A DNA stretch of 54,444 nucleotides from the NCBI RefSeq assembly GCF_030611305.1, contig NZ_JAUWQB010000013.1, positions 1-54,444 on the forward strand, written 5' to 3'. Below, piece by piece: positions 25,202 to 53,408 of this stretch. The DNA is from Desulfobacula sp. (GTDB lineage Bacteria; Desulfobacterota; Desulfobacteria; Desulfobacterales; Desulfobacteraceae). A program made the position numbers and the translations under genes. The notes beneath the pieces were generated by a model. The model made no database searches. It had not been told where the DNA came from and was given only the letters and a program-made list of their open reading frames with translations. Positions within the stretch are counted from its first letter, which is position 1; every line of letters starts with the position of its first letter.

Positions 25202-25615
25202 TTGCAGAACCAAACTTTCCCCTTAAGAGTATTATTGGCTAAGCCTGGATTGGACGGGCATGATAAGGGAGCCAAAATCGTGGCTACTTTGCTTCGTGAT
25301 GCCGGTGTGGAAGTTATCTATACCGGTCTGAGACAAAGTGTTGACCAAATTATATCAGTAGCGATCCAGGAGGATGTTGACGTAATTGCCCTTAGCATAT
25401 TGTCAGGCGTCCATCTTGAAATAAGCCGTAAGATAATGAACAAACTCAGGGAAGAAGGTGTAGATACAATACCGGTCACTATAGGAGGCGTTATTTCAAA
25501 AAAGGATATTAAAGAGCTGAAAAAAATAGGCATTACCGAAGTTTTTCCTGTTGGTTCATCATTCGACAGCATTCTTGAATTCTTTAAATCAAGAACTAAA
25601 AAAGTTGAAATTTAA
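25202..25615 (+). CDS. B12-binding small subunit of acyl-CoA mutase
   Basis: The 137-residue protein is a stand-alone cobalamin-binding Rossmann domain. DxHxxG is present as KPGLDGHDKG, supplying the lower-axial His, followed by ALSILSG and TIGGVIS. The start is TTG, supported by AAAGGAG eight bases upstream. Its position 84 bases after the mutase large subunit, in the same orientation, makes it that enzyme's natural partner. It is clearly paralogous to 38328-38726. Confidence 0.93.
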   Translation: MQNQTFPLRVLLAKPGLDGHDKGAKIVATLLRDAGVEVIYTGLRQSVDQIISVAIQEDVDVIALSILSGVHLEISRKIMNKLREEGVDTIPVTIGGVISKKDIKELKKIGITEVFPVGSSFDSILEFFKSRTKKVEI

Positions 25616-25630
25616 AATCGGAGACAGACA

Positions 25631-25720
25631 ATGGGAAATATAAAATTAGGATATTCAGGAGTTGAGATTACTTCAGGTATAAATTTTAAAGAAAAGGTGT
25701 TTCTATGGAATGGAATATAG
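25631..25720 (+). CDS. Possible 29-residue leader ORF overlapping the CoA ligase start
   Basis: A short frame starts with ATG after GGAGACAGACA, reads MGNIKLGYSGVEITSGINFK and ends inside the first codons of the ligase. The overlap could couple translation, because the ligase's own ribosome site (GGTG) is weak. It resembles nothing I know and may be chance. Confidence 0.2.
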   Translation: MGNIKLGYSGVEITSGINFKEKVFLWNGI

Positions 25721-27261
25721 GTTGCATTGCTTCAAAACGAGCTACTACAACGCCGAATAAAACTGCGATGATTTATGAAGACCATCCGATTACATATAAA
25801 GAACTTAATGACGGGGCTAACCGCTTTGCCCACTTTCTTCAGGAAAAAGGCTTAAAAAAAGGTGATCATATTTCAGTATTTTTGTTAAATTGTCCTGAAT
25901 TAATTGAAATATACTTTGCCGCAGCAAAGCTGGGAATCGTTTTTGTTCCGATGAATTTCCGCCTGGTTGGTCCTGAGTTGGAATATCAGCTTAATAATTG
26001 TGATTCACGACTGCTTGTTTTTCATGATACTCTCTTTAAGAACCTTGAGCCTGTCTTATCTTCAATTAAAGTGGAAAGAGATAAATTCCTTTTTATAAAG
26101 AGCGAAACACCGGATTGTTCTGGTTGTCCTGAATGGGCGATTGATTACGCTGATGTGATAGAAAGTTATCCGACGGACGAACCATTGCCCAATGAACCGA
26201 TTTTAATGGATGATCCCCTTGCTATTCTGTATACTTCAGGGGTTACCGGTTTGCCAAAAGGCGCTGTTTTATCACACAGCCAGACCTATTTTAAAAATTT
26301 TCAGATCATAATGTATACTGATATGCGATCTGAAGACATTTTTCTTACTCAATTGCCCTTATTTCATTCCGGCGGTCTTTTTATAACTGCAACGCCTGTA
26401 TTCTGTCGTGGTGCAACTCTTATAATGAGGCAACGTTTTAATGCTGAACAGTTTGCATTGGATATTGGAAAATACAAGGCCACCATAGTTTTTGCACTGA
26501 CTACTATGTGGAGATTTGTTCTACAATCAGAAAAACTCGATTCTGCGAATACCGGTAGTATCAGGGTTACTATGGGAGGAGGTGAACGGACTCCTTTAAC
26601 CCTTTTTGATGAACTGGCCGAAAGGGGAATTCACCTGCAAAACGGTTTCGGGCAGACTGAAAACTCTTATATGATGCTTATGCCTAAGAAATATATATTT
26701 TCTAAAAAGGGATCCATAGGCAAACCCGGCTTTTTTACCGAGGTATGGATAGAAGATTCAGATGGGAAAAAACTTCCACCTGGAAAAAAAGGTGAAATAG
26801 TTGCAAAAGGTCCCACAGTAATGAGCGGGTATTGGAAGCTGCCTGACAAAACTTCCGAAGCCATCAAAGACGGAGTGCTTCATACGGGGGATTATGGATA
26901 CATGGATGAGGATGGATTTTTTTATATCGTAGATAGAGCAAAAGATATGTACAGGACCGGAGGTGAAAATGTCTACCCTGCTGAAGTTGAAAAGGTTTTA
27001 GCCAATCATCCCAAAATCTTTAATGTATCTATTATCGGTGTTCCTGATGAAAAATGGGGTGAAGCGGGTATGGCCTTTATTATTCCGGAAGAAGGTAAAA
27101 GCCTGACCAGTGAAGACGCGTTAGATTATCTCAAAGGCAAGGTGGCCAAATATAAGTTCCCACGCCATTTTAAATTTGTAGATTCTCTTCCCATGACTGC
27201 CACGGGTAAGATAATGAAGGTTAAATTAAAAGAAAAATATGGTGTTCGATTGGATGCTTAA
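25705..27261 (+). CDS. AMP-forming acyl-CoA ligase, module A
   Basis: This 518-residue member of the ANL superfamily has the phosphate loop YTSGVTGLPKGA (about residues 173-184), GFGQTE in the adenine region, HTGDYGYMDEDGFFYIVDRAKD at the hinge, and the catalytic lysine in TATGKI near the C-terminus. It activates a carboxylic acid to its CoA ester using ATP. It is a close paralogue of 44830-46395, and both have Val in place of the usual second Thr of TSGTTG. The substrate is unknown. The neighbouring TRAP genes and mutase suggest a branched or dicarboxylic acid. Confidence 0.9.
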   Translation: MEWNIGCIASKRATTTPNKTAMIYEDHPITYKELNDGANRFAHFLQEKGLKKGDHISVFLLNCPELIEIYFAAAKLGIVFVPMNFRLVGPELEYQLNNCDSRLLVFHDTLFKNLEPVLSSIKVERDKFLFIKSETPDCSGCPEWAIDYADVIESYPTDEPLPNEPILMDDPLAILYTSGVTGLPKGAVLSHSQTYFKNFQIIMYTDMRSEDIFLTQLPLFHSGGLFITATPVFCRGATLIMRQRFNAEQFALDIGKYKATIVFALTTMWRFVLQSEKLDSANTGSIRVTMGGGERTPLTLFDELAERGIHLQNGFGQTENSYMMLMPKKYIFSKKGSIGKPGFFTEVWIEDSDGKKLPPGKKGEIVAKGPTVMSGYWKLPDKTSEAIKDGVLHTGDYGYMDEDGFFYIVDRAKDMYRTGGENVYPAEVEKVLANHPKIFNVSIIGVPDEKWGEAGMAFIIPEEGKSLTSEDALDYLKGKVAKYKFPRHFKFVDSLPMTATGKIMKVKLKEKYGVRLDA

Positions 27262-28639: not shown

Positions 28640-29959
28640 ATGAACATTACAAAAAAAATAGCTGAATATGTATATAAAACTAATATTTCCGATATACCGC
28701 AGGATGTATTGGATACAGCTAAGCTGTGTTTTCTTGACTGGCTGGGAGTTACCATTGCAGGGGCAAAAACCGAGTTCGGCGAAGTAGCGCAAGGCTATCT
28801 TTCCCTTAACTCAAAACACGGAATTGCAAGTATAATCGGGAAAAATCAAAAAGCAGATCTGCAAAATACTGCCCTTATAAATGGAATATTCTCCCATGCG
28901 CTTGACTTTGATGACTATCATATGACAACCATATTGCATTCTACTGCCCCAACTTTTCCTGCAATACTTGCAACGGCTGAATATGCGGAATCAAACGGTG
29001 AAGAATTACTTTTGGCATTTGTTCTTGCTCTCGATGTAACTCTAAGGCTCGGAAAGGGCGTGCATCGGATTCATTATGACAGGGGATGGCATATTACTTC
29101 AACAATTGGTCGATTCGGGGCTGTTGCAGGTGTTGCACGTCTTCTCCATCTTGATACCGACACTATAATCAATGCCCTTGGTATTGCCGGCACAACTGCC
29201 GGAGGTCTGAGAAATGTATTCGGCTCCATGTCAAAGCCCTATCATGTGGGAAAAGCTGCTATGGACGGATTGATGGCCTGTTTTTTTGCACAAAAGGGTC
29301 TTGACAGTTCAGCAGATATCTTTGGTGGGAAACATGGCTTTTTTGATCTTTTTACTGAAAATCCGGATTATAACACTATAATTAAAGGTATAGGCAAAGA
29401 TTTTTTATTAAATGAGATTTGCTTTAAAACCTATCCGGCACCATTGTGAGTGCATTCAACCACAGATCTCATGGTTGAGATCCGGAAAAATGAAAGTCCT
29501 GTTATATCTGATATAGAAAAAATAGAGATAGAAATTGATAATTTACCCCTTGATGCTGCCGGCATAATAGAGCCCAAGACTTTGCATGAAGCACGGTTCA
29601 GCATATATTTTCTTGCAGCTCTTGCCCTTACCGAAGGAAAGGTGACAGTGGAAAATTTTACAGAGAAAAAGGTTCTGGACCCTGAACTTGTTGTTTTAAG
29701 AAGAAAAATTAAGGCAACAGGCCTTTCTGATATCGGGCTTAGTTCAAACGTTGCAATTCATATGAAAGACGGCAAAATTTATAGACGATATACCCCTGAC
29801 CCTAAGGGGTCTTTAGAGAAGCCCCTGAGCCCTGAAGAACTAAAAGATAAGTTCAGGACTACAAGTGGCCTGCCATCTGAAACAGCCGACAAGGTAATTG
29901 AAAAAATAATGGGATTGGAAAGGATTAAATCTACAAATGAGATATTATCTTTAGTTTAG
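28640..29959 (+). pseudogene. MmgE/PrpD family gene with an in-frame UGA
   Basis: Codons 1-269 and 271-439 form one continuous MmgE/PrpD protein of normal length (439 versus 446 for the paralogue at 39999). It is broken only by TGA at 29447-29449, in YPAPL-UGA-VHSTTDL. Everything else, including LDWLGVTIAGA, SHALDFDDYHM and RGWHITSTIGRFG, is intact and in frame. The family includes 2-methylcitrate dehydratase and cis-aconitate decarboxylase. The stop is either a simple nonsense mutation or a selenocysteine codon, since a hairpin follows 15 bases later. The paralogue has Ala at that place, which argues against Sec. A pseudogene is the safer call. Confidence 0.7.
29465..29482 (+). promoter_or_regulatory. 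Hairpin just downstream of the in-frame UGA
   Basis: GATCTCA-TGGT-TGAGATC is a perfect 7-bp stem with a GGU-containing four-base loop. It starts 15 bases after the UGA at 29447-29449. Bacterial SECIS elements sit at a similar place and show G-U in the apical loop. Without a Sec-specific test this is only suggestive. Confidence 0.3.
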
Positions 29960-32619: not shown

Positions 32620-33579
32620 ATGAAAAATCGTGTAACCGAGATACTGGGTATAGACCTGCCTTTAATTCTGGGCCCGATGCGTTTGATCACTTTAGGAGAG
32701 GTGGCTGCTGCCTTCTCCAACAGCGGAGGCTTTGGCCAGATTGCTGCCTCAGGGCTTTCAACCGACAGGTTGCGATCAGAACTTAAAAAAGCCAAGGAGC
32801 TTACAACTAAACCTTTTGGAGTTAATATTCCTATATATCGACCCAATGCTTATGATGCACTTGAAATTGCTGTTGAGACAGGGCTTAAAGCTGTTACCAC
32901 CTGTGCAGGTGATCCGGCCAAGTTGATCGGACGTATTAAAGAAGCAGGTCTTAAAGTTTTTCATAAAGCAGCTACCGTAAAAATGGCTAAAAAGGCTGAA
33001 GCTGCAGGCGTAGATGGAATAATTGCTACAGGATTTGAGGCTGGGGGCCATGTAGGAAGAGAGTGGGTAACCAATTTTTGTCTTATTCCCCAATTGTCGG
33101 ATGCCTTGAAAATACCGATAGTCTCTGCTGGTGGTGTGGCGGATGCAAGGGGTCTGCTGGCAGCTTTTGCCCTGGGTGCTGAGGGTGTTGAGATTGGAAC
33201 CGTCATTTTATCCACCCGTGAATGTCAGGTACCTGATTTTTTTAAACAGCTTATCCTAGATGCAGGAAGCGATTCTACTATACTTCTTGGTAAAAAAGCG
33301 ATGCCCATGCGTGTTTTGAGGAATAAGGCTGCAGAAAGTATTGGCGGGCCGGATAAATCAAAAGAAGACAGGAAATTGGACTCACAGGGAGACAAAAAAT
33401 ATGTTGCTGAAGAAGGCGTGGATGCCGACAATGCAATAATGCCATGCGGTCAGATTTCCGGCTTGATAAGGGAGATAAAAAGCGTGAAAGAATTGCTGCC
33501 GGAAATGATGGAAAAAGCACAGATATTGTCTTCCCAATTGCGGGATGTATTTCAAGACAAAAACGATTCGGGCAGATAG
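32620..33579 (+). CDS. Nitronate monooxygenase-like flavoprotein (NPD/FabK family)
   Basis: The 319-residue FMN TIM-barrel protein has LPLILGPMRLIT, GFGQIAASG, GFEAGGHVGR with the conserved His, and PIVSAGGVADARGLLAAFALGAEGVEIGT. The family holds nitronate monooxygenases and FMN-dependent enoyl-ACP/acyl-CoA reductases. In an anaerobic acyl-CoA locus an enoyl-CoA reductase-like or isomerase role is more plausible than monooxygenation (inference). The C-terminal 60 residues (SIGGPDKSKEDRKLD onward) are unusually charged. Confidence 0.8.
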   Translation: MKNRVTEILGIDLPLILGPMRLITLGEVAAAFSNSGGFGQIAASGLSTDRLRSELKKAKELTTKPFGVNIPIYRPNAYDALEIAVETGLKAVTTCAGDPAKLIGRIKEAGLKVFHKAATVKMAKKAEAAGVDGIIATGFEAGGHVGREWVTNFCLIPQLSDALKIPIVSAGGVADARGLLAAFALGAEGVEIGTVILSTRECQVPDFFKQLILDAGSDSTILLGKKAMPMRVLRNKAAESIGGPDKSKEDRKLDSQGDKKYVAEEGVDADNAIMPCGQISGLIREIKSVKELLPEMMEKAQILSSQLRDVFQDKNDSGR

Positions 33580-33637: not shown

Positions 33638-34438
33638 ATGATGAAAATGGAATATGTTTTACTTGATAAAAAAGATGGAATTGGAACCATTACCCTTAAC
33701 AGGCCAGAAAGATACAATGCTTTTGCAGGAGGAATGAGAGAAGAAATTCTGGAAGCGGTACAGGAAACGTGTTCTGATCCCGATATTCGCGCAATTGTTA
33801 TTACCGGTAATGGGAAAGCCTTTTGTGCGGGTGGAGATGTGAACGAGTTTGTCAGCGGAAACAGCAAGGCGCTTTCTGATGCTGATATTGCTACTTCCGA
33901 TAGACTCACCATGTGTAAGGCTGTTCTTGCTATAAATGCGGGAGAAAAACCGGTAATTGCCGCAGTAAATGGTGTTGCAGCCGGTGGCGGTTGTAATCTC
34001 GCCCTCTCCTGCGACATCAGAATTGCCAGTGAAAAGGCAAAGTTTGGACAGGTTTTTACTCGCAGAGGTGCATTCCCCGATTGGGGCGGCATTTATTTTT
34101 TACCCCGCCTTGTTGGATATGCCAAAGCTGCGGAATTACTTTTTTCAGGAGAAATAATTGATGCCCGGGAGGCCTTTAAAATAGGAATGGTAAATAAAGT
34201 TATCCCCCATGATAAATTAATGGAAGAGACATATAAAATGGCTGAAAGGATTGTAAAAAATGCACCAATTCCTATTGCCTTTATTAAACGGGGTCTTCAA
34301 AATTTTTACAAGATGGATCTTAGCCAGGCTGTTGATTACGAGGCATATGTATTAGGCATGACCTTGAAAAGTGAGGATTTTATGGAAGGGTTTAACGCCT
34401 TTCTGGAAAAAAGAGAACCGGTTTTTAAAGGCAAATAA
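33638..34438 (+). CDS. Crotonase-fold protein, PaaG-like isomerase candidate
   Basis: The 266-residue crotonase-superfamily protein has the oxyanion-hole segments AFCAGGDV and AAGGG. Of the two hydratase glutamates (rat Glu144/Glu164), the first is Asn (GGGCNLAL) and the second Phe (FGQVF). It does carry Asp in GAFPDWGGIYFLPRLVG, matching the IPDCGG aspartate of PaaG-type ring/enoyl isomerases. A hydratase is therefore unlikely, and a double-bond isomerase is the better guess. Its stop overlaps the next start (TAATG), so the two are translationally coupled. Confidence 0.8.
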   Translation: MMKMEYVLLDKKDGIGTITLNRPERYNAFAGGMREEILEAVQETCSDPDIRAIVITGNGKAFCAGGDVNEFVSGNSKALSDADIATSDRLTMCKAVLAINAGEKPVIAAVNGVAAGGGCNLALSCDIRIASEKAKFGQVFTRRGAFPDWGGIYFLPRLVGYAKAAELLFSGEIIDAREAFKIGMVNKVIPHDKLMEETYKMAERIVKNAPIPIAFIKRGLQNFYKMDLSQAVDYEAYVLGMTLKSEDFMEGFNAFLEKREPVFKGK

Positions 34439-35223
34439 TGGTAACTTTGTTGAAAGAAATTATCCGGAAAGATGATGGCAGGATAAGTACAATTTTCTTC
34501 AATCGCCCGGAAAAAAGAAATGCTTTAAATGCAGATGCTCTTTTCCAACTGGGTGATATCGTAAATCAGATAGAAAGAGAAAATAAGATAAGGGTACTTG
34601 TCTTAAGGGGAGCAGAGGATAAAAATTTTTCTGCCGGCGTGGACCTTTCCTGCGGAAAAAATAATTTCAAACGGATGATTGAAGGTCTGGAATATTGTCT
34701 TAACAGCCTGATTAATTTTTCTCAGCCGATGATCAGCATGATTTACGGTCCTGCCATAGGAGCAGGGCTGGACATTTCGGTAATATCGGATTTTAGGATT
34801 GCTGCCAACGGCGCCAGTTTTGGCGCTCCTTTGGTCAAACTGGGAAGAACATATTACTACACGGCTATCAGGCGGCTCACACGCCTGATCGGGCTGGCCG
34901 GAGCAAAGGAGATTTTGTTGACAGGGAGGCTGATAGATGCCAGGCGTGCATTGGAAATCGGGCTGGTTAATCAGTTAGTCCATGAGGATGACCTTGAATC
35001 CGCGGTAGGTTTCCTTGCAAATGAATTGGCGGAAGATACCGCCCCCCTGGCAGTGAAAGTTACCAAACTCACAATAAAAAAACTTTTTGAGGAAACGCCA
35101 CTTGATCCGTCGTTGGAAGACGAACTTAAGCGGTTTGCAGATGAAATAAATCAGAGCGAAGATGCTAGGGAAGGGATAAATGCTAAAATTGAAAAGCGCA
35201 AACCGGTTTTTTCAGGGAGGTAA
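34438..35223 (+). CDS. Crotonase-fold protein of unknown reaction
   Basis: The 261-residue protein shares the fold (RPEKRNALNADAL, NFSAGVDLS, GPAIGAGLDISVISDFRIA). The Glu144 position is Asp and the Glu164 position Leu (SFGAPLVKLG), and the usual P-x-GG loop is replaced by RTYYYTAIRRL. It cannot be a classical enoyl-CoA hydratase. Decarboxylase, hydrolase or isomerase are possible. It overlaps the preceding crotonase by one base and is two bases ahead of the small ORF at 35226. Confidence 0.75.
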   Translation: MVTLLKEIIRKDDGRISTIFFNRPEKRNALNADALFQLGDIVNQIERENKIRVLVLRGAEDKNFSAGVDLSCGKNNFKRMIEGLEYCLNSLINFSQPMISMIYGPAIGAGLDISVISDFRIAANGASFGAPLVKLGRTYYYTAIRRLTRLIGLAGAKEILLTGRLIDARRALEIGLVNQLVHEDDLESAVGFLANELAEDTAPLAVKVTKLTIKKLFEETPLDPSLEDELKRFADEINQSEDAREGINAKIEKRKPVFSGR

Positions 35224-35225
35224 TT

Positions 35226-35690
35226 ATGCCAGTTGATAATGATAATTTTCAAGTTAAAACACCCAGGGAAGCACTCTCCCTTTTAAGTCAGAAAATGTTC
35301 AACAAATATGGTAAAGAAGCACTCTTGGAAATTGAAGACGTCTGGTACAAACTCGGATGTGCTGTTGGAAAAAAGATGAAAAAGAAATTGCCTGATACCA
35401 ATTTAATAACAGTTGCAAATAGTTTTGTTGACGGTGGTCACAAACGAGGAGCTAAGGTAGACGTGCTTGAGTTAACCGAAAATAAGTTTCATCTGAGAGG
35501 ATACCACTGTGCGATCGGTCTTAATGGAAAGGGAAAGAAGCTCTGCTGGGCATGTATGGGGATAGATCGCGGCCTTTTTGAGACAGCTACGGAAAATGAT
35601 TTAGAAATGAAGATAATTAAAACCCTTTCAGATAATGATGAATATTGTGAATTTGTGATCAAGCGATTAATAAAAAAACCTGGAGATTAA
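35226..35690 (+). CDS. Small protein, possibly ATC-hydrolase (PF14196)-like
   Basis: This 154-residue soluble protein is coupled to the crotonase pair. Recognisable features are YHCAIGLNGKGKKLCWACMG and the ending DNDEYCEFVIK, with conserved-looking Cys residues. They resemble the L-2-amino-thiazoline-4-carboxylic acid hydrolase family and related small-ligand proteins. The family call is uncertain. In such loci these proteins may act on a CoA thioester or as a ligand-binding accessory (inference). Confidence 0.4.
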   Translation: MPVDNDNFQVKTPREALSLLSQKMFNKYGKEALLEIEDVWYKLGCAVGKKMKKKLPDTNLITVANSFVDGGHKRGAKVDVLELTENKFHLRGYHCAIGLNGKGKKLCWACMGIDRGLFETATENDLEMKIIKTLSDNDEYCEFVIKRLIKKPGD

Positions 35691-35787
35691 CGACAACTTG
35701 CAATTGATGATATAAAAAAATGCTACAGGACAATTTGTACACGAAGCTAGTAATTCTTAAAAAAATTAAACATTTGGGGACAAAAAT

Positions 35788-36600
35788 ATGGACTTTGAAA
35801 CGATTATGCTGGTTAAAAAAAAACATATAGCGACATTGACCTTGAACAGACCGGAAAAAAGTAATGCGATCAACAGGAAGATGATGGAAGAACTTGGAGA
35901 AGCGATTGAGGATGTGGCCGGAGATGACGAAATGAGGGCTTTGCTGCTTACAGGAGCAGGTAAGGCTTTCTGTGGCGGAGCTGATCTTGATATAATGCCG
36001 GGTGGTGGAGATGTAAAAGATCTTGCGGAACTTGGGGTTGAGACATTAAGACGCTCATTTCTCTTTAAAGCATCAAAAAAAATTATTCTCGGGATTCAAC
36101 AGATGGAAAAACCGACCATTGCCATGATAAATGGTGTATGTGTGGGCGCTGGATTTGATCTGGCCCTATCGTGTGACCTGAAAACAGCAAGTGAAAAGGC
36201 AAAATTTATGTGCGGATTCGTAAAGCTTGGCCTTTTCCCGGGTTTTGGAGCAGCCTGGCTTTATCCGAGATGCATGGGAGTGACAAAAGCATTTGAGATG
36301 CTTTTTACAGGAGATATGTTGAAAGCACAGGAAGCAAAAGAAATCGGAATGATTAACAAATTGGCATCACCGGAAAAACTTGAAGAAATTACTCTTGAAA
36401 TGGCTACAAAAATTGTCAATGGTCCGCCTGTCGCAATAAGATTGATGAAGTCACAAGTATACAGGGGAATGGGAAGTGATTTAAATGCTGCTCTGGATGA
36501 CGCTGCTGTCTGTGAATCAATTACACTTGCGTCAAAAGATCATATTGAAGGAATTACTGCCTTTCGAGAAAAAAGAGCGCCATTATTTGAAGGAAAATAA
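35788..36600 (+). CDS. Crotonase-fold protein, third paralogue
   Basis: The 270-residue protein has AFCGGADLDIMPGGGDV and GVCVGAGFDLALSCDL. The Glu144 equivalent is Asp, the Glu164 equivalent Phe (FMCGFVKLG), and the loop reads LFPGFGAAWLYPR, without the PaaG aspartate. It thus differs from both neighbours in the active site. The three probably catalyse different steps on one CoA-ester pathway. The gene ends 27 bases before the carboxyltransferase start. Confidence 0.78.
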   Translation: MDFETIMLVKKKHIATLTLNRPEKSNAINRKMMEELGEAIEDVAGDDEMRALLLTGAGKAFCGGADLDIMPGGGDVKDLAELGVETLRRSFLFKASKKIILGIQQMEKPTIAMINGVCVGAGFDLALSCDLKTASEKAKFMCGFVKLGLFPGFGAAWLYPRCMGVTKAFEMLFTGDMLKAQEAKEIGMINKLASPEKLEEITLEMATKIVNGPPVAIRLMKSQVYRGMGSDLNAALDDAAVCESITLASKDHIEGITAFREKRAPLFEGK

Positions 36601-36627
36601 TTTAAATTTTTGAGGAGAGACATCTTC

Positions 36628-38193
36628 ATGGATAAAAAGACCGAAGATAGAATCAGACAACTACGTGAAGTAAAGGCTGCCGCATTAAAAGGTGGTGGTG
36701 AAAGAAAAATTGAGATCCAGCATAAGAAAGGAAGAATGACAGCGCGGGAAAGGTTGGACTATTTGCTGGACGACAAAAGTTTTACCGAGTTTAATATGTT
36801 GTTGTGTCATATGGACGGCGCACCGGGCGATGGTCTTGTCAGCGGTGTCGGCACTATAAATGGAAAAAAAGTATGCGTGTATTCCCAGGACCCAACAGTC
36901 AAAGGAGGCTCTATAGGCGCGCTTCACGGTTATAAAATGTACAAGACAGTAGAACAGGCGCTACAGATGGGCATTCCTCTTGTCGGCCTTCATGATTCGC
37001 CAGGGGCAAGGCTTCCCAAGATAAAAGAGAGTAAAACCGCCCTTGGAGATATGATGGAGAAAAGTGGAGGTTCGATTTTTTATCCCAATACGCAGGCTTC
37101 TGGTGCTATCCCTCAGATATCGGCTATCCTTGGCAGTTGTGCAGGAATTTCTGTTTATTCACCTGCATTGACTGATTTTATATTTATGGTGGATAAAACC
37201 AGCCATATGTATATTACAGGTCCCGCCATGGTTAAATCTGTCATGGGCGGTGATATCAGCCATGAAGAATTAGGTGGTGCGAAAATTCATTGCAAAATCA
37301 GCGGCGTAGCAGATAAAAGATTTAAAAATGAAAAAGAATGTCTGGACGGCATAAAAGAACTTTTGAGCTATCTTCCTCCTAATATGAATGAAAAACCGCC
37401 CCAAAAAGCCATGACGGATGATTCTGAAAGATTAATGGATGATATACTGGATACCATTCCCCCACAATCCAACAGGCCCTATGACATGCACAAGATTATT
37501 AACAAAATTATTGATGGAGGCAGCTTTTTTGAAATAAAACCTGAATTTGCTACAGAAATAATTGTTGGATTTGCCCGTCTTAATAATGAAACAATTGGAA
37601 TTGTTGCCAACCAGCCCATGGTGCTTGCCGGGAGCCTGACAAGCAACAGCTCGGATAAACAGGCAAGATTTATGAGATTTTGTGATTGTTTCAATATCCC
37701 TATAATTCTGCTTGTTGATACACCTGCATATATGCCTGGTGCACCTCAGGAACGCTTTGGAATCATCAGACACGGCGCCAAAGTTCTGTATGCTCTTTGT
37801 GAAGCAAACGTTCCGCGGATAGCCGTTGTTCTGAGAAAATCTTATGGTGGCGGGAATCTGGGTATGGGAGTCGTCTCCGGTATGGGGACAGATCTTGTTT
37901 ATTACTGGCCAACTGTTGAAGTGGGTGTATTGGGACCGAACGCCTCGGTAGAGCTTTACTTTGGCAAGGAAATCCGAGAATCAAATAATCCTGAAGCGGT
38001 TAGAACAAAAAAGCTATCTGAATTCACCGAGAAATATTCAAATCCCATGCGTGAAGTGTCAGCAAACTGGGGGATTGATGATGTTATCGAACCTAAAGAA
38101 ACCAGAAAGATTTTAATTAAAGGATTAAATTTTCTTTCTTCCAAAAAAAGGCCGGTCAGGCACACTAAACACCATGGAAACATTCCCCTGTGA
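36628..38193 (+). CDS. Biotin-dependent carboxyltransferase (methylmalonyl-CoA decarboxylase alpha / PccB-like)
   Basis: The ATG at 36628 is preferred over an in-frame TTG at 36610 because TGAGGAGAG lies at the right distance. The 521-residue protein has the two crotonase-like halves of the acyl-CoA carboxylase beta family. These are HKKGRMTARERLDYLLD, GAHPGARLPK-type text as LHDSPGARLPK, GSCAGISVYSPALTDF, RFMRFCDCFNIPII and VVLRKSYGGGNLGMG. No biotin carboxylase gene is present. Delta, beta and biotin-carrier subunits of a sodium-pumping decarboxylase lie at 49314-51109. It is therefore probably the alpha subunit, transferring CO2 from a malonyl-type CoA ester to biotin. Confidence 0.85.
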   Translation: MDKKTEDRIRQLREVKAAALKGGGERKIEIQHKKGRMTARERLDYLLDDKSFTEFNMLLCHMDGAPGDGLVSGVGTINGKKVCVYSQDPTVKGGSIGALHGYKMYKTVEQALQMGIPLVGLHDSPGARLPKIKESKTALGDMMEKSGGSIFYPNTQASGAIPQISAILGSCAGISVYSPALTDFIFMVDKTSHMYITGPAMVKSVMGGDISHEELGGAKIHCKISGVADKRFKNEKECLDGIKELLSYLPPNMNEKPPQKAMTDDSERLMDDILDTIPPQSNRPYDMHKIINKIIDGGSFFEIKPEFATEIIVGFARLNNETIGIVANQPMVLAGSLTSNSSDKQARFMRFCDCFNIPIILLVDTPAYMPGAPQERFGIIRHGAKVLYALCEANVPRIAVVLRKSYGGGNLGMGVVSGMGTDLVYYWPTVEVGVLGPNASVELYFGKEIRESNNPEAVRTKKLSEFTEKYSNPMREVSANWGIDDVIEPKETRKILIKGLNFLSSKKRPVRHTKHHGNIPL

Positions 38194-38327: not shown

Positions 38328-38726
38328 ATGAACGAAGAAGGAAAAATCAGAGTACTGGTTGCCAAACCCGGGCTTGACGGGCATGAACGTGGTGCATGGG
38401 TTGTTGCTTATGGGCTGAGAGATGCCGGTTTTGAGGTTGTCTACACCGGATTACGGCAGACACCTATGGAGGTTGCAACTGCAGCTATACAGGAGGATGT
38501 CAATGTGGTAGGGCTCTCCATCCTTTCCGGTGCCCATCTTAGTTTAAGCAGAGCTGTCATCGAGAATCTCAAGGCTCAGGGTGGAGAAGATATTATTGTT
38601 ATGGTTGGCGGAGTTGTTTCAGATGATGATATTCCAAAATTGAAAGAGATGGGTGTCTCTGAGGTTTTCACTTCGGGAAGTTCCATCCAGTCAATCGCTG
38701 AGTTCATTCATTCTGTGACTTCTTGA
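38328..38726 (+). CDS. B12-binding small subunit of acyl-CoA mutase, second copy
   Basis: The 132-residue cobalamin domain has KPGLDGHERG (lower-axial His), LSILSGAHLS and VGGVVSDDD. It is a paralogue of 25202-25615. It is separated from the nearest mutase large subunit (46471) by nearly 8 kb. It may serve that enzyme or either one. Its stop overlaps the possible TTG start of the MFS gene. Confidence 0.92.
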   Translation: MNEEGKIRVLVAKPGLDGHERGAWVVAYGLRDAGFEVVYTGLRQTPMEVATAAIQEDVNVVGLSILSGAHLSLSRAVIENLKAQGGEDIIVMVGGVVSDDDIPKLKEMGVSEVFTSGSSIQSIAEFIHSVTS

Positions 38727-39994
38727 ACTCAGAGGCCATTCAAGGAATAAAAATAAAATTGAAAAATAAAATTCACTATCGCTGGATTGTTCTTCTGATA
38801 TTTGTTTCATCTCAGCTCGTTCTTTCCATCGCAGGATATGGCTGGGGAGCCCTTGCTCCTTTTTTAAAAAAACTTATGTCATTGAATAGTACCCAGATAG
38901 GCAGCATCGGCTCCATTTTTTATTTTGCTGCAGCTTTGTCAGCGTTACCTTCAGGTATGTTGGTTGATCTTTACGGAGTAAAAAAAGGCCTTATCGGGTG
39001 GCTGGGGATTACAAGTGTTCCCCTACTGCTTCTTAGTATTTTTAAACCCATTTTCCCAATTTTTATTATATTGGCGGCAATAAGTGGATTGGGCTATGGC
39101 ATTGGCAACCCTGTCTGTTCCAAGGGATTGTTCTTATGGTTTGACCAGAATATAAGGGGGCTTGTATTTGGAATAAAGCAATCTGCCGTGACAGTTGGCG
39201 CAGCGGTCTCCGGCATACTTCTGGTTTATCTTGCCGATAAAGTGGGTCCCTTTAATGCTCTTGGCATCATTGGTCTGGCTATTTCCGTAATGACCATTTT
39301 ATCATTAATTTATTATCATGATCCAATTCACCCTGAAAATATTTCCAATAATACAACTGCTCTTAAAAGGGGAAAATTTCTTTCCGAATTTGGTGAGCTT
39401 TTTGCCAATAAGCCCTTTTTCTATCTGTCTCTTATCATGGCATTGCTTGGCCTGGCTCAGGGTGTGGTTATCAGTTTTCTCATCCTTTATGCTACTGAAA
39501 AATTGGGATATTCACTTTTGGAAGCCGGCTCCCTTTTGACCCTTGTAATGATCAGCGGTGCTGTGGGTCGGATACTATGGGGTTTTATTAGTGACCGCCT
39601 GTATGGCGCCCGTCGCAAACCGGTTCTAATTATTATATCCACACTGGCTGTCCTTACTATAACCGCATTGGCCGTGTGGGACGTTACATGGCCCAAATGG
39701 CTGTTGATACCCGTGCTCATGGGGTTAGGGCTTTCAACCGCCGGATGGAACAGCGTTGCGTTGGTGCTGGTAACCGAGATCAGTACAGAATCAAGAACAG
39801 GCACTTCAGTGGGCCTGGCCTCTACTATTGCATGGTTTGGTCTTGCGTCCGGGCCTATTGCCTTTGGAAGTATAATAGATCACTTTGGATATTTTTATGC
39901 CTGGAGAGCAATGGCGTTTTTTTGTATTTTTTCTTTAATTCTCTGCTTTTTGTTGCCAATTAATGAAGCAGTCAACAATGTTACAGGAGATTAA
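38723..39994 (+). CDS. MFS transporter, module B
   Basis: The protein of up to 423 residues has twelve membrane helices. It shows the MFS signatures GMLVDLYGVKKG and GRILWGFISDRLYGARRK, and GIKQSAVTVGAAVSG in helix 5. The start is uncertain. TTG at 38723 overlaps the B12 subunit stop, and another TTG near 38759 has AAGGA upstream. A fragment of the C-terminus of this family is fused into the pseudogene at 20774-21240. The likely cargo is an organic acid or its exchange partner. Confidence 0.85.
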   Translation: MNSEAIQGIKIKLKNKIHYRWIVLLIFVSSQLVLSIAGYGWGALAPFLKKLMSLNSTQIGSIGSIFYFAAALSALPSGMLVDLYGVKKGLIGWLGITSVPLLLLSIFKPIFPIFIILAAISGLGYGIGNPVCSKGLFLWFDQNIRGLVFGIKQSAVTVGAAVSGILLVYLADKVGPFNALGIIGLAISVMTILSLIYYHDPIHPENISNNTTALKRGKFLSEFGELFANKPFFYLSLIMALLGLAQGVVISFLILYATEKLGYSLLEAGSLLTLVMISGAVGRILWGFISDRLYGARRKPVLIIISTLAVLTITALAVWDVTWPKWLLIPVLMGLGLSTAGWNSVALVLVTEISTESRTGTSVGLASTIAWFGLASGPIAFGSIIDHFGYFYAWRAMAFFCIFSLILCFLLPINEAVNNVTGD

Positions 39995-39998
39995 AATT

Positions 39999-41339
39999 AT
40001 GAAACAAGAACAAATGGATTTCAGCCGTAGAATAATACGATTTATTACAGAAACAAACACTAAAGATATTCCCCCTGAAATTTATGAACATGCTAAAATC
40101 GCTTTTCTAGACTGGCTGGGGGTCACGCTTGCAGGCAAGGACGATCCTCTGGTAGAAAAACTGATCAGATATGCCGATTTAATGGGAGGAAATAAGCATG
40201 GGACTCTTATTGGTCGGAGAATAAAAAAAAGCCTCAGTCAGGCGGCTTTGATAAACGGGGCTGCATCCCATGCTCTGGATTACGACGACACATTGATGAC
40301 TTATGTCGGTCATCCAACGGTCACCATGATTCCGTCATTGCTGGCTCTATCAGAATGGAAAGAAAAAAGCGGTATTGATTTTCTGACAGCATATATTATC
40401 GGTATGGAAGCAGCTTCTGTCATTGGTACTTGTGCCGGCATGGATCATTACATGCATGGATGGCACGCCACATCCACCATAGGACATTTCGCTTCTGCTG
40501 CTGTCTGCTCCCGGTTGCTGGGGTTAACTGGAGATCAGACGTTTTACGCTTTTGGCATCGCCGGAACCCAGGCATGCGGCCTTAAAATATCCTTTGGCAC
40601 CATGTGCAAACCCTTCCATGCCGGCCGGGCATCCCAGGCCGGGCTTATGGCAGCCCTGCTGGCTGCTGACGGTTTTACTTCTGCCCATAACATTCTGGAA
40701 GGCCCCAAGGGGTTTTTCCATGTTCTTAATGGAGAGGTAAAAGAAGATATTGTTAAAAACTTGGGGGAAACATGGAATATTAAAAATCTGGCTCAAAAAT
40801 ATCATGCATCGTGTCATGCCACTCATTCCGCCATTGAAGCAGCAAGAAGCCTTGTCCGGCGGGAGAGAATATCAATTGATAAAATAAAATCCATTAGAAT
40901 CCACACCTCAGAGCTGTCTCTGGGCATAGTGGGCAATGCAGAACCCAAAACCGGCCTGGAAGGAAAATTCAGTGTTATTTATTGTGTAGCCAACGCTCTT
41001 TTAAAAGAAAATACAGGTATGCAGGCATTTACAGATGAAGTGGTGATGGATCCGGCAGTCCGGACATTCATGGAAAAAATATCAATTAAGTTAGACAAAG
41101 ACATGGCTGCTCTGGGGGCCAGGGTCGAAATCGAGACAGATTTGGGGGAAATTTATTCCATGATTACGGATATTATAAAAGATATACCTGACCTTGGGGT
41201 AAAGAGATCGAAAATAAAAGATAAATTCATTGATTTGAGCAAGCCTGTTCTTGGAGATAAAAAAACTGAAGAAATATTGGAGAAGGTGTTCACTTTAGAG
41301 AAAATTGATAATTTAAAGCCCTTTATTGAAGACCTTTAA
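39999..41339 (+). CDS. MmgE/PrpD family protein, intact copy
   Basis: The start at 39999 is preferred over an ATG at 39963 because ACAGGAG is upstream and it abuts the MFS stop. The 446-residue protein has the family text KIAFLDWLGVTLAGKDDP, NGAASHALDYDDTL, YMHGWHATSTIGHF and KYHASCHATHSAIEA. Members dehydrate 2-methylcitrate or decarboxylate cis-aconitate, and others have no known reaction. It is the full version of both the pseudogene at 20774 and the UGA-containing gene at 28640. Presence in both modules suggests it acts early on the imported acid. Confidence 0.9.
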   Translation: MKQEQMDFSRRIIRFITETNTKDIPPEIYEHAKIAFLDWLGVTLAGKDDPLVEKLIRYADLMGGNKHGTLIGRRIKKSLSQAALINGAASHALDYDDTLMTYVGHPTVTMIPSLLALSEWKEKSGIDFLTAYIIGMEAASVIGTCAGMDHYMHGWHATSTIGHFASAAVCSRLLGLTGDQTFYAFGIAGTQACGLKISFGTMCKPFHAGRASQAGLMAALLAADGFTSAHNILEGPKGFFHVLNGEVKEDIVKNLGETWNIKNLAQKYHASCHATHSAIEAARSLVRRERISIDKIKSIRIHTSELSLGIVGNAEPKTGLEGKFSVIYCVANALLKENTGMQAFTDEVVMDPAVRTFMEKISIKLDKDMAALGARVEIETDLGEIYSMITDIIKDIPDLGVKRSKIKDKFIDLSKPVLGDKKTEEILEKVFTLEKIDNLKPFIEDL

Positions 41340-41634: not shown

Positions 41635-42732
41635 ATGGAGAATTTCATTAACAAAAAAACAATGTTTTTGTGCTTGCTAATAACGATTGTGACCTTTGCA
41701 TTTATCGGTTTGAAGTTAACGGATGTGGCAGCCGCATCCGAGAACAAGCCGGTAATCTTAAAGATGTCAACCTATTTAACTCCATCTTATAAAGATGGAT
41801 TCTATGCGAATAAAAGGATGGTAGATTATATCAATCTTCATGGTAAAAAGTGTAACCTAAGCGCTGAATTTTTTCATTCCGGTACTGTCTATAAAGCCAA
41901 GGAACTTTTGCCCAGTTGTATGACGGGTTCGCTCGATATCGGAGGCTTGGTAGCACCCTATGTCGAAGGCAGCATACCTGCCCTCGGTGTTTCGTCTTTG
42001 CCCTTTGCCTGGGAGAGTTTTTACGTCCATAGAGATGGCACCAGAAGAGGAAGTCCATATTTTAATTTCCTGGCTGATGAATATGCTCAACGTGGACTTG
42101 TGCTTCTTTCCCAGTCTCCTGTGGGGCCTCAGGAATTTATCAGCTCTAAGCCCCTATTAAAACTGGAAGACTGGAAAGGCCTGAAGGTCAGGGTATCCGG
42201 GGCGGTGTATTCTAAAGCCATGCAGACAATCGGTGCAGTCCCTATTTCCATGCCCTCGGGTGAGGTTTATACTTCACTTCAAAGAGGCGTTGTGGATGCT
42301 GCCCAGGGACTTGATATAACCTTTAAAGCTCGTAAGCTCTATGAAGTTACCAAGCACCAGATAAATTTTAGCTGTTTTGATATGGAATGGACAATTTTCA
42401 TGAACAAAAAGAAGTTTGACAGTCTATCCAAGGACCAGCAAAAAGTTGTAATGAATGCGGCCGAAATATGTGGACATGACATGAGTACGTCTGAAGTCCT
42501 TGGAGGTTTTATGGGGTTGAGATCCAGCCTTGAAAAAAAGAATGGCATTAATCAGATATATTACTCAGAGAATGAGTACAAACGATTTAAAAAAGCAATG
42601 GAACCGGTAGTAGAATGGTGGACCAAAAAAGTTGGCAAGGAGACGGCCCAAAAGGCCTTAAGGGCTGTGCGTGACAGTCAAGACGTGGGAATACCGAGCT
42701 GGGGAAAGCTCGATTTAATCCTTCCTGAGTAA
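41635..42732 (+). CDS. TRAP transporter substrate-binding protein (DctP), module B
   Basis: The 365-residue protein has a signal peptide (hydrophobic residues 9-30, cleavage near VAAA/SEN). The TRAP DctP pattern follows: LPFAWESFY, then LKVRVSGAVYSKAMQTIGAVP with the ligand-binding Arg, then MPSGEVYTSLQRGVVDAAQG. It differs considerably from the module A protein, so it may bind a different acid. AAAGGAGAG precedes the ATG. Confidence 0.9.
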   Translation: MENFINKKTMFLCLLITIVTFAFIGLKLTDVAAASENKPVILKMSTYLTPSYKDGFYANKRMVDYINLHGKKCNLSAEFFHSGTVYKAKELLPSCMTGSLDIGGLVAPYVEGSIPALGVSSLPFAWESFYVHRDGTRRGSPYFNFLADEYAQRGLVLLSQSPVGPQEFISSKPLLKLEDWKGLKVRVSGAVYSKAMQTIGAVPISMPSGEVYTSLQRGVVDAAQGLDITFKARKLYEVTKHQINFSCFDMEWTIFMNKKKFDSLSKDQQKVVMNAAEICGHDMSTSEVLGGFMGLRSSLEKKNGINQIYYSENEYKRFKKAMEPVVEWWTKKVGKETAQKALRAVRDSQDVGIPSWGKLDLILPE

Positions 42733-42743
42733 GCGGTTTTCAC

Positions 42744-42781
42744 AAATTTCCCGATCCCGCTATCACGGGATCGGGAAATTT
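42744..42781. terminator. Strong hairpin between dctP and dctQ
   Basis: AAATTTCCCGATCCCG-CTATCA-CGGGATCGGGAAATTT is a perfect 16-bp stem. It ends in a short T stretch rather than a long one. It probably works as a partial terminator or an mRNA-stabilising element that raises binding-protein levels over the permease. A full stop is less likely because the permease genes continue in the same direction. Confidence 0.75.
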
Positions 42782-42886
42782 AATGGAGACGTCTACAGTC
42801 CATCAAAAAAAGGATATGCAAAAAAGGCCTTATTCGCTTTGCATAATAACATTAAGGTAATGCCGTTGGCTTGTAAGGAGGTATCA

Positions 42887-43435
42887 ATGAAGGCTGTTGT
42901 AAGTATCGGACGAAACATGGGCAAGGCAATTAACCAGGTTTGCCAATTCGGGCATCTGCTGGGAGAAATCGCCGTATTGATATTGTTACTTATGGTTTCC
43001 TATACTGTGGTCATGAGATATTTTTTTAATAATCCACCCATATGGACAGAGGAAATAGGCTGTTACCTTTTTATCTTCATAATCTGGATTTCAGTGGGTG
43101 GTGTACTGAAAGAAGATCGCCATATTACTTTTGATTTGGTATTTGAATATATTTCTCCGAATACGCAGATCTGGCTTAAAATCGTGACCTCTTTTGTAGG
43201 TCTTTTGTTTTGTGTTGTTCTTGCCTGGTATGCTACCAGGTATACATTTTTTCAATATCAATTCAACCTTGAGTCTTCCACATTGTTATCCATGCCGTTG
43301 TGGATACCCTATATGACCATACCTGTGGGGGGAATTATAATCAGCCTGCAGTTCCTGGTCAAAATTGCGGGATATTTCTCTTTTCTGTCAGGCCAGAAGA
43401 ATAAACAAAAGGAGAATATGAATCATGGAGCCTAA
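42887..43435 (+). CDS. TRAP transporter small permease (DctQ), module B
   Basis: The start at 42887 is chosen over 42839 because AAGGAGG sits five bases upstream. The 182-residue product has four membrane helices and the DctQ motif YTVVMRYFFNNPPIWTEEIGCYLF. It ends eleven bases inside the dctM gene. It forms the membrane complex with 43425-44729. Confidence 0.9.
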   Translation: MKAVVSIGRNMGKAINQVCQFGHLLGEIAVLILLLMVSYTVVMRYFFNNPPIWTEEIGCYLFIFIIWISVGGVLKEDRHITFDLVFEYISPNTQIWLKIVTSFVGLLFCVVLAWYATRYTFFQYQFNLESSTLLSMPLWIPYMTIPVGGIIISLQFLVKIAGYFSFLSGQKNKQKENMNHGA

Positions 43436-44729
43436 CTTAGTTCTCATAATATGCATAGTGATTTTGTTTGGTCTATTGCTCGCAGGTAGCCCTATCTTTG
43501 TAGCTCTGGGAACAGCAAGCATTCTTGGCATTTTCCTGTTAGGGGGGCTGAGTGCAGTCTACCGTTTGCCTTCAATAATTTTCTCACATCTTGACAACTT
43601 TATTCTGCTTTCTGTGCCGCTTTTCCTGCTGATGGGTCAAGTTCTCTTTTTTTCAGGGATAGGTGCGGATCTATATAAATCCGGAAACAAATGGTTTTCG
43701 GGAGTCAGGGGGGGGCTGGCAATGGCAAGCACGATTTCTTGCGCTGTTTTTGGTGCCATGTGTGGTGTAAGCCTGGCTGCTGCCGCGGCTATCGGATCAT
43801 TCGCTATCCCGGAAATGAAAAAAATGAATTACGATCCCGGATTCGCTGCAGGCACAGTCGCCGCTGCGGGTGCCTTAGCCATGCTCATTCCGCCGAGTCT
43901 GTTGTTTATCCTATACGGTGCCATAGCTGATGTATCGGTCGGCAAACTGTTTATCGGTGGTATAGTGCCCGGCATTATTCTGGCTTTAATGATGTGCGGT
44001 TATGAATGGATAGCAGTAAAAAGGAATCCGCTCATGGCCCCTATGATAAAAGAAAACGTAACCTGGAAAGATAAGTTTTCTTCCCTAAAGAGGTTATGGC
44101 CTGCATTGATTCTCATATTTTTAGTGCTGGGAACCATTTATCTTGGTGTTTGCACTCCTACAGAGGCCGGAGCCATTGGTTCGATGGGCGCCATTTTTAT
44201 ATCCGTTTTTATTTATCGTAGTCTCACGTGGGAAAAATTTCGGCTTATTTTTAATTTTACGACTCGAACAACAGCGTCGATAATGCTTATCTTTTCTTGC
44301 GGGGTCTTATTCAGCGTGCTCCTAACCATGCTGAGACTCCCGGACAAGCTGTCTGAATTTGCCATTGCAAGCGGATTGCCTGGATGGGGGATTATTATTA
44401 TGTTGTGTTGTATGCTTCTGATTCTTGGTATGTTTGTGGACGGTGGAACAGCAGTTATAGTCACCACCCCTATTGTACTGCCAACAATAATCTCAGCAGG
44501 TTATGATCCGTTGTGGTGGGGAGTAATCCTGATATTGAATCTTGAGATGGCCGTAATCACGCCTCCTGTGGGGTTAAACCTTTATGCAATCAAGAGCATT
44601 GCCAATGATATAGCAATGAAAGATATTATTCGAGGATCTTTGCCTTTTGTCATTGTTGAGATGCTTTGCCTGGCACTATTTATAATTTTTAAAGACCTTG
44701 CCCTGTGGCTACCCAGAATGATGGGATAA
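43425..44729 (+). CDS. TRAP transporter large permease (DctM), module B
   Basis: The 434-residue protein has the DctM helices and motifs: GLLLAGSPIFVALGTASILG, SVPLFLLMGQ, GAMCGVSLAAAAAIG, AMLIPPSLLFILYG and GVCTPTEAGAIG. It is the ion-coupled transport subunit. Its start overlaps the dctQ gene and GGAG lies ten bases upstream. Confidence 0.92.
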   Translation: MEPNLVLIICIVILFGLLLAGSPIFVALGTASILGIFLLGGLSAVYRLPSIIFSHLDNFILLSVPLFLLMGQVLFFSGIGADLYKSGNKWFSGVRGGLAMASTISCAVFGAMCGVSLAAAAAIGSFAIPEMKKMNYDPGFAAGTVAAAGALAMLIPPSLLFILYGAIADVSVGKLFIGGIVPGIILALMMCGYEWIAVKRNPLMAPMIKENVTWKDKFSSLKRLWPALILIFLVLGTIYLGVCTPTEAGAIGSMGAIFISVFIYRSLTWEKFRLIFNFTTRTTASIMLIFSCGVLFSVLLTMLRLPDKLSEFAIASGLPGWGIIIMLCCMLLILGMFVDGGTAVIVTTPIVLPTIISAGYDPLWWGVILILNLEMAVITPPVGLNLYAIKSIANDIAMKDIIRGSLPFVIVEMLCLALFIIFKDLALWLPRMMG

Positions 44730-48231: not shown

Positions 48232-49197
48232 ATGACAGGGAAAAATCCTATGACCAAAGAGTTGACAAAATTGATTGGAGAAATGGAAAGTGGGTCTGTT
48301 CGTGCCTTGGCAAGGCTGATCTCTCTGGTTGAAAATCGGAGAGATGGGTGGATGGATGTAATGAGAAAGATTTATCCGCTGACGGGTAAAGCCCGGGTGG
48401 TGGGGATTACCGGTTCTCCAGGGGCTGGCAAGAGTACCTTGACTGACCGTATGATCGCTGATCTGGTTGATAAAGGGTTAAGTGTTGGAGTTATTGCAGT
48501 GGATCCTTCCAGTCCTTTTTCAGGTGGAGCATTGCTTGGAGACCGGCTCCGAATGAAAAAAACCAGTCTTCTTGAAGGGGTTTTTGTCCGGTCAATGGCA
48601 ACCAGAGGTGCTCTTGGTGGGTTGAGTCTTGCTGCCCGAGATGTAATCAAAATTATGGATGCCTCTGGCAAAGACATTATTCTGGTGGAAACAGTGGGAG
48701 TCGGGCAGGCTGAGGTGGAGATTGTTAGAGCGGCTGATTTGGTAATGGTAGTCTGCGTACCTGGTATGGGGGATGGCATTCAGGCAATTAAAGCCGGAAT
48801 TATGGAGATTGCGGATATCTTTGTTGTCAACAAAGCAGATAAGGAAGGAGTTGACAGAGCAGTGGGTGATATTCAGGGGATGCTGGCTCTCAGTTCGTTT
48901 AATGATTCTCCGACAATTCCAGTAATGAAGACAACTGCGGTTACGGGTGAAGGGGTACAAGCGTTAATAGAAACTCTTTTGAAATCCATTAAATTCCAAA
49001 AAGCTGATCCGATAAGGCAGAAAGAGCGTATCAGAGAAGAAATTCTGGGACTTATGGAAAGGGAAGTTTCCCGGGTACTGCACCGAAATTGGGTAAAAAA
49101 TGGGAAATTAGATAATGCCCTCAAAAAGATATTGGCTCAGGAAATTGACCCTTATTCCATTGTAGAAGAAATGGTTGTTCCGCTAATACAGGTTTGA
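48232..49197 (+). CDS. meaB: MeaB/ArgK-type G-protein chaperone of B12 mutase
   Basis: The 321-residue GTPase has P-loop GSPGAGKST, DPSSPFSGGALLGDRLRM, ETVGVGQAEVEI and NKAD, the standard MeaB order. MeaB loads and protects B12 in methylmalonyl-CoA-mutase-type enzymes. Its location three bases after the divergent mutase supports that enzyme being a true B12 mutase. The start may be 48232 or 48250; the second has AGGGA upstream. Confidence 0.93.
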   Translation: MTGKNPMTKELTKLIGEMESGSVRALARLISLVENRRDGWMDVMRKIYPLTGKARVVGITGSPGAGKSTLTDRMIADLVDKGLSVGVIAVDPSSPFSGGALLGDRLRMKKTSLLEGVFVRSMATRGALGGLSLAARDVIKIMDASGKDIILVETVGVGQAEVEIVRAADLVMVVCVPGMGDGIQAIKAGIMEIADIFVVNKADKEGVDRAVGDIQGMLALSSFNDSPTIPVMKTTAVTGEGVQALIETLLKSIKFQKADPIRQKERIREEILGLMEREVSRVLHRNWVKNGKLDNALKKILAQEIDPYSIVEEMVVPLIQV

Positions 49198-49313: not shown

Positions 49314-49448
49314 ATGACAAATGCATCGACGATTTTTATTTCAGGTATCGCAGGAGTTATGGCCGGAATGACCCTGCTCTATTTATCCTTGAAGATCACC
49401 TCTCTGATTGTAGACAAACTGGAAGCATCGGGTTCCGATAAAAAATAG
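49314..49448 (+). CDS. OadG/MmdD-like delta subunit of sodium-pumping decarboxylase
   Basis: This 44-residue protein has one membrane helix near its N-terminus (IFISGIAGVMAGMTLLYLSL) followed by a short charged tail (KLEASGSDKK). GGAGA lies seven bases before the ATG. Size, single helix and position directly before the beta subunit fit the OadG/MmdD family. These subunits hold the membrane and soluble parts together. The Pro/Ala linker of longer members is missing, so the family call rests on context. Confidence 0.6.
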   Translation: MTNASTIFISGIAGVMAGMTLLYLSLKITSLIVDKLEASGSDKK

Positions 49449-53362: not shown

Positions 53363-53408
53363 AATTTCCCTAAATAATATTTTAATATGGGTCAAAAATC
53401 ATTTTCTA

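Follow-up and report, generated by a model that had tools for sequence, protein, structure and literature searches.

Three crotonase-fold proteins without the hydratase glutamate pair in a putative dicarboxylic acid gene cluster of Desulfobacula sp.

Results

Three crotonase-fold genes without the catalytic pair

The window analysed here, a 54,444-nucleotide stretch of a contig of Desulfobacula sp., carries three crotonase-fold genes at positions 33638-36600, all on the plus strand, referred to as ECH1 (33638-34438; 266 amino acids (aa)), ECH2 (34438-35223; 261 aa), and ECH3 (35788-36600; 270 aa). Membership of the crotonase superfamily is evident from scores of 225.9, 147, and 197.5 bits, respectively, against PF00378 (cut-off 27), and AlphaFold2 predicts a crotonase fold for ECH2 (predicted local distance difference test, pLDDT, 88.1; predicted template modelling score, pTM, 0.86) and for ECH3 (pLDDT 83.2; pTM 0.84). 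The original prediction of three crotonase-fold open reading frames (ORFs) lacking the glutamate pair of enoyl-CoA hydratases at this place was confirmed by the ORF list, the PF00378 matches, and alignments made with both HMMER and MAFFT. Its description of them as paralogues holds at the superfamily level only: ECH1 and ECH3 share 43% identity, ECH2 shares ~31% with each of them, and the three are not one family.

The catalytic columns were defined in HMMER alignments by Glu113 and Glu133 of the two-glutamate enzyme in Protein Data Bank (PDB) chain 5zai, which we take to correspond to Glu144 and Glu164 of the rat enzyme; the MAFFT alignments also took in the other crotonase-fold ORFs of the genome and PaaF, PaaG, CaiD, MenB, and ScpB of Escherichia coli K-12. 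Both approaches place Asn/Phe at the two positions in ECH1, Asp112/Leu132 in ECH2, and Asp124/Phe144 in ECH3. The column of the PaaG aspartate holds Asp in ECH1, within the motif FPDWGG, Tyr in ECH2, and Gly in ECH3, so that ECH1 alone has the PaaG-like Asp, as had been proposed. The set of ECH3, with Asp124 at the Glu144 place as its single acid and Gly where PaaG has its Asp, is unlike those of all six aligned references. MenB has V/G/G at the three aligned places, unlike the N/F/D, D/L/Y, and D/F/G of ECH1, ECH2, and ECH3, none of which has the MenB residue set.

Lack of the pair is not in itself a rarity: among the 17 PF00378 ORFs of this genome, 8 have Glu/Glu and 9 do not, and three crotonase-fold ORFs drawn from it at random would all be without Glu/Glu with P ~0.12. 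Since the absence alone is thus weak evidence, the finding rests on the conservation of the residue sets, which are fixed in all orthologues found of the three proteins (59-78% identical). The Asp/Leu and Tyr of ECH2 are retained in ten of ten genomes (nine alignment rows plus G133), namely, that of the window, G133, and those of the stretches L035 to L042 (L038 being from G148, L041 from G151, and L042 from G152). Asp/Phe/Gly is kept in five of five ECH3 orthologues of at least 71% identity (window, G133, G145, G146, and G147) as well as in a 55% identical relative from G150, which gives Gly in six of six rows, and the Asn/Phe and PDWGG of ECH1 recur in all four orthologues of at least 69% identity (window, G149, G150, and G152). 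In both ECH1 and ECH2, L039 (G149) scarcely differs from L040 (G150), and the two, being hardly independent, amount to about one count. In no orthologue examined of any of the three proteins is Glu present at either position, and the Glu164 place is always Phe or Leu. In the hydratase AcuH, according to an excerpt of PMC5651017, mutants of Glu112 or Glu132 had no detectable activity. Collectively, these observations firmly support the prediction that ECH1, ECH2, and ECH3 are not plain enoyl-CoA hydratases.

That automatic pipelines would name them so, as was also suggested, is plausible. The best NCBIfam match is called "enoyl-CoA hydratase" for ECH1 and ECH2 and "crotonase/enoyl-CoA hydratase family protein" for ECH3; none of the best 25 matching models of each protein (out of 73, 71, and 72, respectively) reaches its own cut-off, and naming by equivalog models was rejected.

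Relationships of ECH1, ECH2, and ECH3

A tree of 46 rows, with 15 of 43 inner branches passing the bar of the tree tool and the bootstrap not settled, was built without L015 and L017 (2 of the genome's 14 other crotonase-fold ORFs), the fragment L082_3816, the duplicate L076_1005, and the ECH3 relatives L112-L114. ECH1 and ECH3 fall into a 16-row group with the PaaG proteins of E. coli and Thermus (support 82/92, under the bar), and ECH2 groups with E. coli ScpB/YgfG, PDB 4k2n, and a crotonase from a mutase contig of G148 (96/81). Among known structures, the ECH2 model matched 3p5m (Z 31.3), EchA6 (30.6), and YgfG (1ef8; Z 30.1, root-mean-square deviation 2.5, 255 residues aligned), and the top matches of the ECH3 model were 3pea and 4lk5 (Z 33.5). 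Because the Foldseek and VIA-align scores of hydratases, EchA6, YgfG, and PaaG are only a few Z units apart, the fold does not tell the reaction, and assignment by structure was rejected.

The residue set of ECH1, Asn/Phe/Asp, compares with Thr/Phe/Asp in E. coli PaaG and Ser/Phe/Asp136 in Thermus PaaG. Asp136 is described as the catalytic residue and proton shuttle in the part of PMC7497051 consulted, whereas an excerpt of PMC4498308 ascribes a single catalytic glutamate to PaaG; the alignments support Asp over glutamate. The deposited chain of PDB 6sla has Asn at the Asp136 place. ECH1 thus has the small-polar/Phe/Asp set of PaaG, with Asp in the Asp136 column and Glu in neither the 144 nor the 164 column, and lies in the same region of the tree, although it is only 36% identical to E. 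coli PaaG and scores 216.6 bits on the PaaG equivalog TIGR02280, under the cut-off of 345.15. Since this set matches that of PaaG, in which Asp136 acts as proton shuttle, ECH1 is best read, with moderate confidence, as a putative PaaG-like double-bond isomerase. Directly upstream of it lies a gene for an NMO/FabK-like flavoprotein (32620-33579, plus strand), and the same order is seen in G152 (L075) but not in G150.

ECH3, in contrast to PaaG, has Gly rather than Asp at the Asp136 place. It is followed by a carboxyltransferase gene, in the window at 36610-38193 (plus strand; MmdA/PccB type), in five of five genomes with an orthologue, with gaps of ~10 to 250 bases. We consider it, with moderate confidence, a candidate isomerase-like enzyme tied to the carboxyltransferase.

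For ECH2, the resemblance is to E. coli ScpB/YgfG, which falls in the same wider clade of the tree (96/81), although the node that unites the two is weak (84/0). Its Tyr139 aligns with Tyr140 of YgfG, and this Tyr is kept in nine of nine rows, with Glu164 absent; we take Tyr140 to be catalytic in YgfG, although our literature search turned up no paper on it. Genes for a mutase and MeaB are neighbours in both cases, the operon of E. coli K-12 being ordered scpA (mutase), argK (MeaB), scpB (YgfG). The two proteins differ in that ECH2 is 32% identical to YgfG, has Asp for Glu113 and no His66, and scores 142.6 bits on the equivalog NF008506 against a cut-off of 257, and some ECH2 clusters, among them those of the window, L040, and L041, additionally contain ligases together with transporters of the TRAP or a TTT-like type. 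For ECH2 we favour, again with moderate confidence, a role as a YgfG-like decarboxylase (or an epimerase) that would use a mutase product. The proposal that the three proteins include an isomerase plus decarboxylase- or hydrolase-type enzymes is supported in part: it would fit ECH1, through its PaaG set, and ECH2, through its clade, Tyr140, and mutase neighbours, but leaves ECH3 without a place, and nothing found points to a hydrolase.

Genes for mutases, a decarboxylase, and uptake surround the crotonases

The gene between ECH2 and ECH3 (35226-35690, plus strand) encodes a 154-aa protein of no known function and without a crotonase match; it weakly matches the C-terminal part of MsvR (29.1 bits against a cut-off of 220) and adjoins ECH2 also in G133, L036, and L037. 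Beyond the carboxyltransferase, all on the plus strand, follow a B12-binding small subunit (38328-38726), an MmgE/PrpD family protein (39963-41339), a TRAP dicarboxylate-type transporter, DctP, DctQ, and DctM (41635-44729), an AMP-forming acyl-CoA ligase (44830-46395), the large subunit of a B12-dependent acyl-CoA mutase, mutB (46471-48228), a MeaB-type mutase chaperone GTPase (48232-49197), a 44-aa one-helix protein that is OadG-like by position and look only and has no Pfam match (49314-49448), an OadB-type Na+-translocating decarboxylase beta subunit (49578-50699), and a biotin carrier domain with the motif AMKM (50894-51109). The small subunit at 38328 was assigned to mutB because its homologue adjoins mutB in L042. 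Upstream of the crotonases, on the same strand, lie another B12 acyl-CoA mutase large subunit, mutA (23468-25117), with its own B12-binding small subunit (25202-25615), and the other AMP-forming acyl-CoA ligase (25705-27261). The window holds two same-direction sets, each of an acyl-CoA ligase, a TRAP transporter, an MmgE/PrpD protein (one interrupted), and a B12 mutase.

The nearest solved relative of mutA is 2-hydroxyisobutyryl-CoA mutase (HcmA; 524 bits), yet both mutA and mutB carry the Tyr and Arg of human methylmalonyl-CoA mutase (MCM) where HcmA has Ile and Gln. These are presumably the Tyr89 and Arg207 of the literature, whose role we likewise assume. The MCM-type Tyr/Arg in both mutases suggests that their substrates may be acyl-CoA esters with a second carboxylate.

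Presence of the MmdA/PccB-type carboxyltransferase, OadB, and the biotin carrier, together with the location of the best biotin carboxylase-like match elsewhere in the genome, makes a Na+-pumping malonyl-type decarboxylase, with the carboxyltransferase as its putative alpha subunit, the simplest reading of these genes. The carboxyltransferase scores 594.7 bits on the mmdA model and OadB 514.3 bits on its Pfam model. The arrangement differs from Na+-translocating methylmalonyl-CoA decarboxylase in that the carboxyltransferase does not reach the 998.8 bits required by the mmdA model and is separated from OadB by 11 kb, and in the addition of three crotonases. Membership of the carboxyltransferase in a carboxylase is disfavoured by the biotin carboxylase-like match being on contig C13, with OadB and the biotin carrier in the window, and a glutaconyl-CoA decarboxylase type by a score of 95.7 bits against 511.7 for a propionyl-CoA carboxylase beta chain.

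The interrupted MmgE/PrpD gene (28640-29959) is broken by an in-frame TGA at 29447-29449, and a nearby conserved Cys is missing. As six relatives have Ala or Gly at the position of the TGA, selenocysteine is disfavoured, and a decaying copy looks likelier than recoding. Remnants of a further MmgE/PrpD gene (Pfam 43.1 bits) and, by eye, of a major facilitator superfamily transporter are found at 20774-21240, which, also as judged by eye, would be a decayed duplicate resembling the 38723-41339 region. Two sigma-54-type activators on the minus strand (18856-20241 and 51821-53395), recognised by eye from their translations, flank the cluster.

Distribution and linkage of related clusters

Relatives are patchily distributed. 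Of 145 genomes, the own one included, 3 match ECH3 at an E-value of 1e-60 and 4 match ECH2 at 1e-45; of 389 genomes of the class, again with the own one, 5 match ECH2 at 1e-80. Apart from the own genome, all that match are of the same order but of other genera. Those carriers that bear a name are metagenome-assembled genomes with the labels Deltaproteobacteria, Desulfobacterales, and Syntrophaceae, and L039, labelled Proteiniphilum, may be misbinned, as it nearly equals the Syntrophaceae stretch L040.

A mutB large subunit (at least 50% identity) is present in seven of the ten ECH2 genomes, window included, and shares the contig of ECH2 in four (window, G150, G151, and G152). Within the stretches read, a carboxyltransferase is found on the ECH2 contig in five of ten (window, G133, G145, G150, and G151) and MeaB likewise in five (window, G133, G146, G150, and G151); several contigs are short, so that these linkage counts are lower bounds. 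In L042, the genes for the small and then the large subunit of mutB are followed directly by ECH2, a row that recalls the scpA-argK-scpB operon of E. coli, with no other match to window genes on the 11 kb read. Since the contig ends just after ECH2, the missing carboxyltransferase says little.

With a different query, and as a rough yardstick of mutase abundance, PF01642 is matched in 133 of 146 genomes of the class, 1-6 times each, except for G130 with 9 (9 of 22 candidates scored); G130 appears to be the same genome as G151. L040 and L074, which represent one contig of G150, hold a related cluster in which a tricarboxylate-type (TctA/B/C-like) transporter, an old-yellow-enzyme-like reductase, an acyl-CoA dehydrogenase, a thiolase, a MaoC-like hydratase, and a 4-hydroxybutyryl-CoA dehydratase-like protein were recognised by eye.

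Discussion

A tentative pathway and its alternatives

The best explanation for these observations, which we put forward tentatively, is that the three genes encode non-hydratase crotonases and belong to a cluster for the catabolism of a dicarboxylic acid, branched or substituted, that the cell imports. The TRAP transporter would take up the diacid and the acyl-CoA ligases would activate it, whereupon the B12 mutases, with MeaB, would rearrange the carbon skeleton from a succinyl-type to a malonyl-type CoA ester; the malonyl-type carboxylate would then be lost and the remaining acyl-CoA oxidised. ECH1 may shift a double bond, with its Asp shuttling the proton. ECH2 would stabilise the enolate of the mutase product in its oxyanion hole, most likely as a decarboxylase, and ECH3, with Asp124 at the Glu144 place, would be isomerase-like and act next to the biotin carboxyltransferase/OadB decarboxylase.

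Several points weigh against this explanation. The biotin/OadB decarboxylase of the window could itself decarboxylate, leaving ECH2 redundant. The tree link of ECH2 to the decarboxylase YgfG is a lead, not proof, because ScpB, on a long branch, joins ECH2 at a node with little support (84/0) in a tree with an unsettled bootstrap; in structural comparison, ECH2 scores about equally well with hydratases, EchA6, and YgfG; and all ECH2 rows have Val, Gly, or Ile in place of His66 and Asp in place of Glu113, two residues that we take to define the YgfG family. As for linkage, mutB at 50% identity or more was not found in three of the ten ECH2 genomes (G133, G146, and G149) and is on a contig other than that of ECH2 in three of the seven that have it. 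G148, G151, and G152 hold 30, 17, and 12 mutB matches (E 1e-50 or better), so that presence of mutB in these three says little. The contig of L042 stops ~240 bases past ECH2, so that another gene may have followed. Finally, among 21 mutase-bearing stretches fetched, many of them chosen for a suspected nearby crotonase, 8 showed a crotonase-fold ORF, and the seven of these that are not ECH1, ECH2, or ECH3 comprise three with Glu/Glu (L086, L087, and L089) and four without it (L079, L088, L090, and L092). A rule that a crotonase beside a mutase is a non-hydratase was accordingly rejected.

Alternatively, all three proteins might be isomerases of unsaturated or cyclic acyl-CoA esters (Delta3/Delta2 or dienoyl-type), with the biotin/OadB enzyme alone decarboxylating. 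The grouping of ECH1 and ECH3 with PaaG, the fact that the window encodes a carboxyltransferase, OadB, and a biotin carrier, and the adjacency of ECH3 and carboxyltransferase in all five genomes agree with this possibility, but ECH2 groups with YgfG rather than with PaaG, keeps the Tyr140 equivalent, and directly follows the mutase in L042, and we regard it as rather unlikely. It is less probable still that ECH2, instead of decarboxylating the substituted malonyl-CoA formed by the mutase, epimerises it and so provides the biotin carboxyltransferase with the stereoisomer on which that enzyme's decarboxylation depends. Such a role would suit the sharing of a contig by mutase, ECH2, and carboxyltransferase in the window, G150, and G151, and Asp112 and Tyr139 could form an acid/base pair; moreover, of three matches in the genome to TIGR03081, an epimerase model, none lies on this contig or reaches the cut-off, the best, on C2, scoring 97.5 against 114.95 bits. 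The C2 gene may nevertheless act as an epimerase, L042 shows no carboxyltransferase (a point of little weight, given the end of its contig), and we know of no crotonase-fold malonyl-CoA epimerase. Least probable, and in our view very unlikely, is that one or more of the three hydrate short-chain substrates in the ordinary way by means of shifted acids (Asp in place of Glu144 and another group in place of Glu164). In favour of this, the best NCBIfam matches carry hydratase names, each protein has 5zai among its three best PDB matches, ECH2 and ECH3 retain an acid, Asp, in the Glu144 column, and Glu/Glu occurs in three of the seven other crotonases from mutase stretches. Against it, every orthologue examined has Phe or Leu at the Glu164 place, and loss of either Glu left AcuH without detected activity in the excerpt of PMC5651017.

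Significance

A further-reaching proposal, of which we are doubtful, is that ECH2 (Asp/Leu/Tyr) and ECH3 (Asp/Phe/Gly) represent two undescribed types of crotonase acting on alkylmalonyl-CoA esters that dedicated B12 mutases would make. They might belong to an unstudied anaerobic route for substituted diacids, in which decarboxylation would be coupled to a Na+ gradient and the mutases of which might number at least a dozen per genome in some uncultured deltaproteobacteria. A literature search of open papers found no described system matching the grouping of mutase, crotonase, and decarboxylase, which does not establish that it is unpublished. Crotonases without the Glu pair are common, but the grouping seen here recurs. 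With hydratase labels on all three proteins, the cluster would pass for ordinary beta-oxidation, whereas reading them as enzymes of isomerase and decarboxylase type beside B12 mutases and a sodium-pump-type decarboxylase suggests that uncultured anaerobes may have a pathway for branched dicarboxylic acids, for which these three small proteins provide defined and directly testable predictions.

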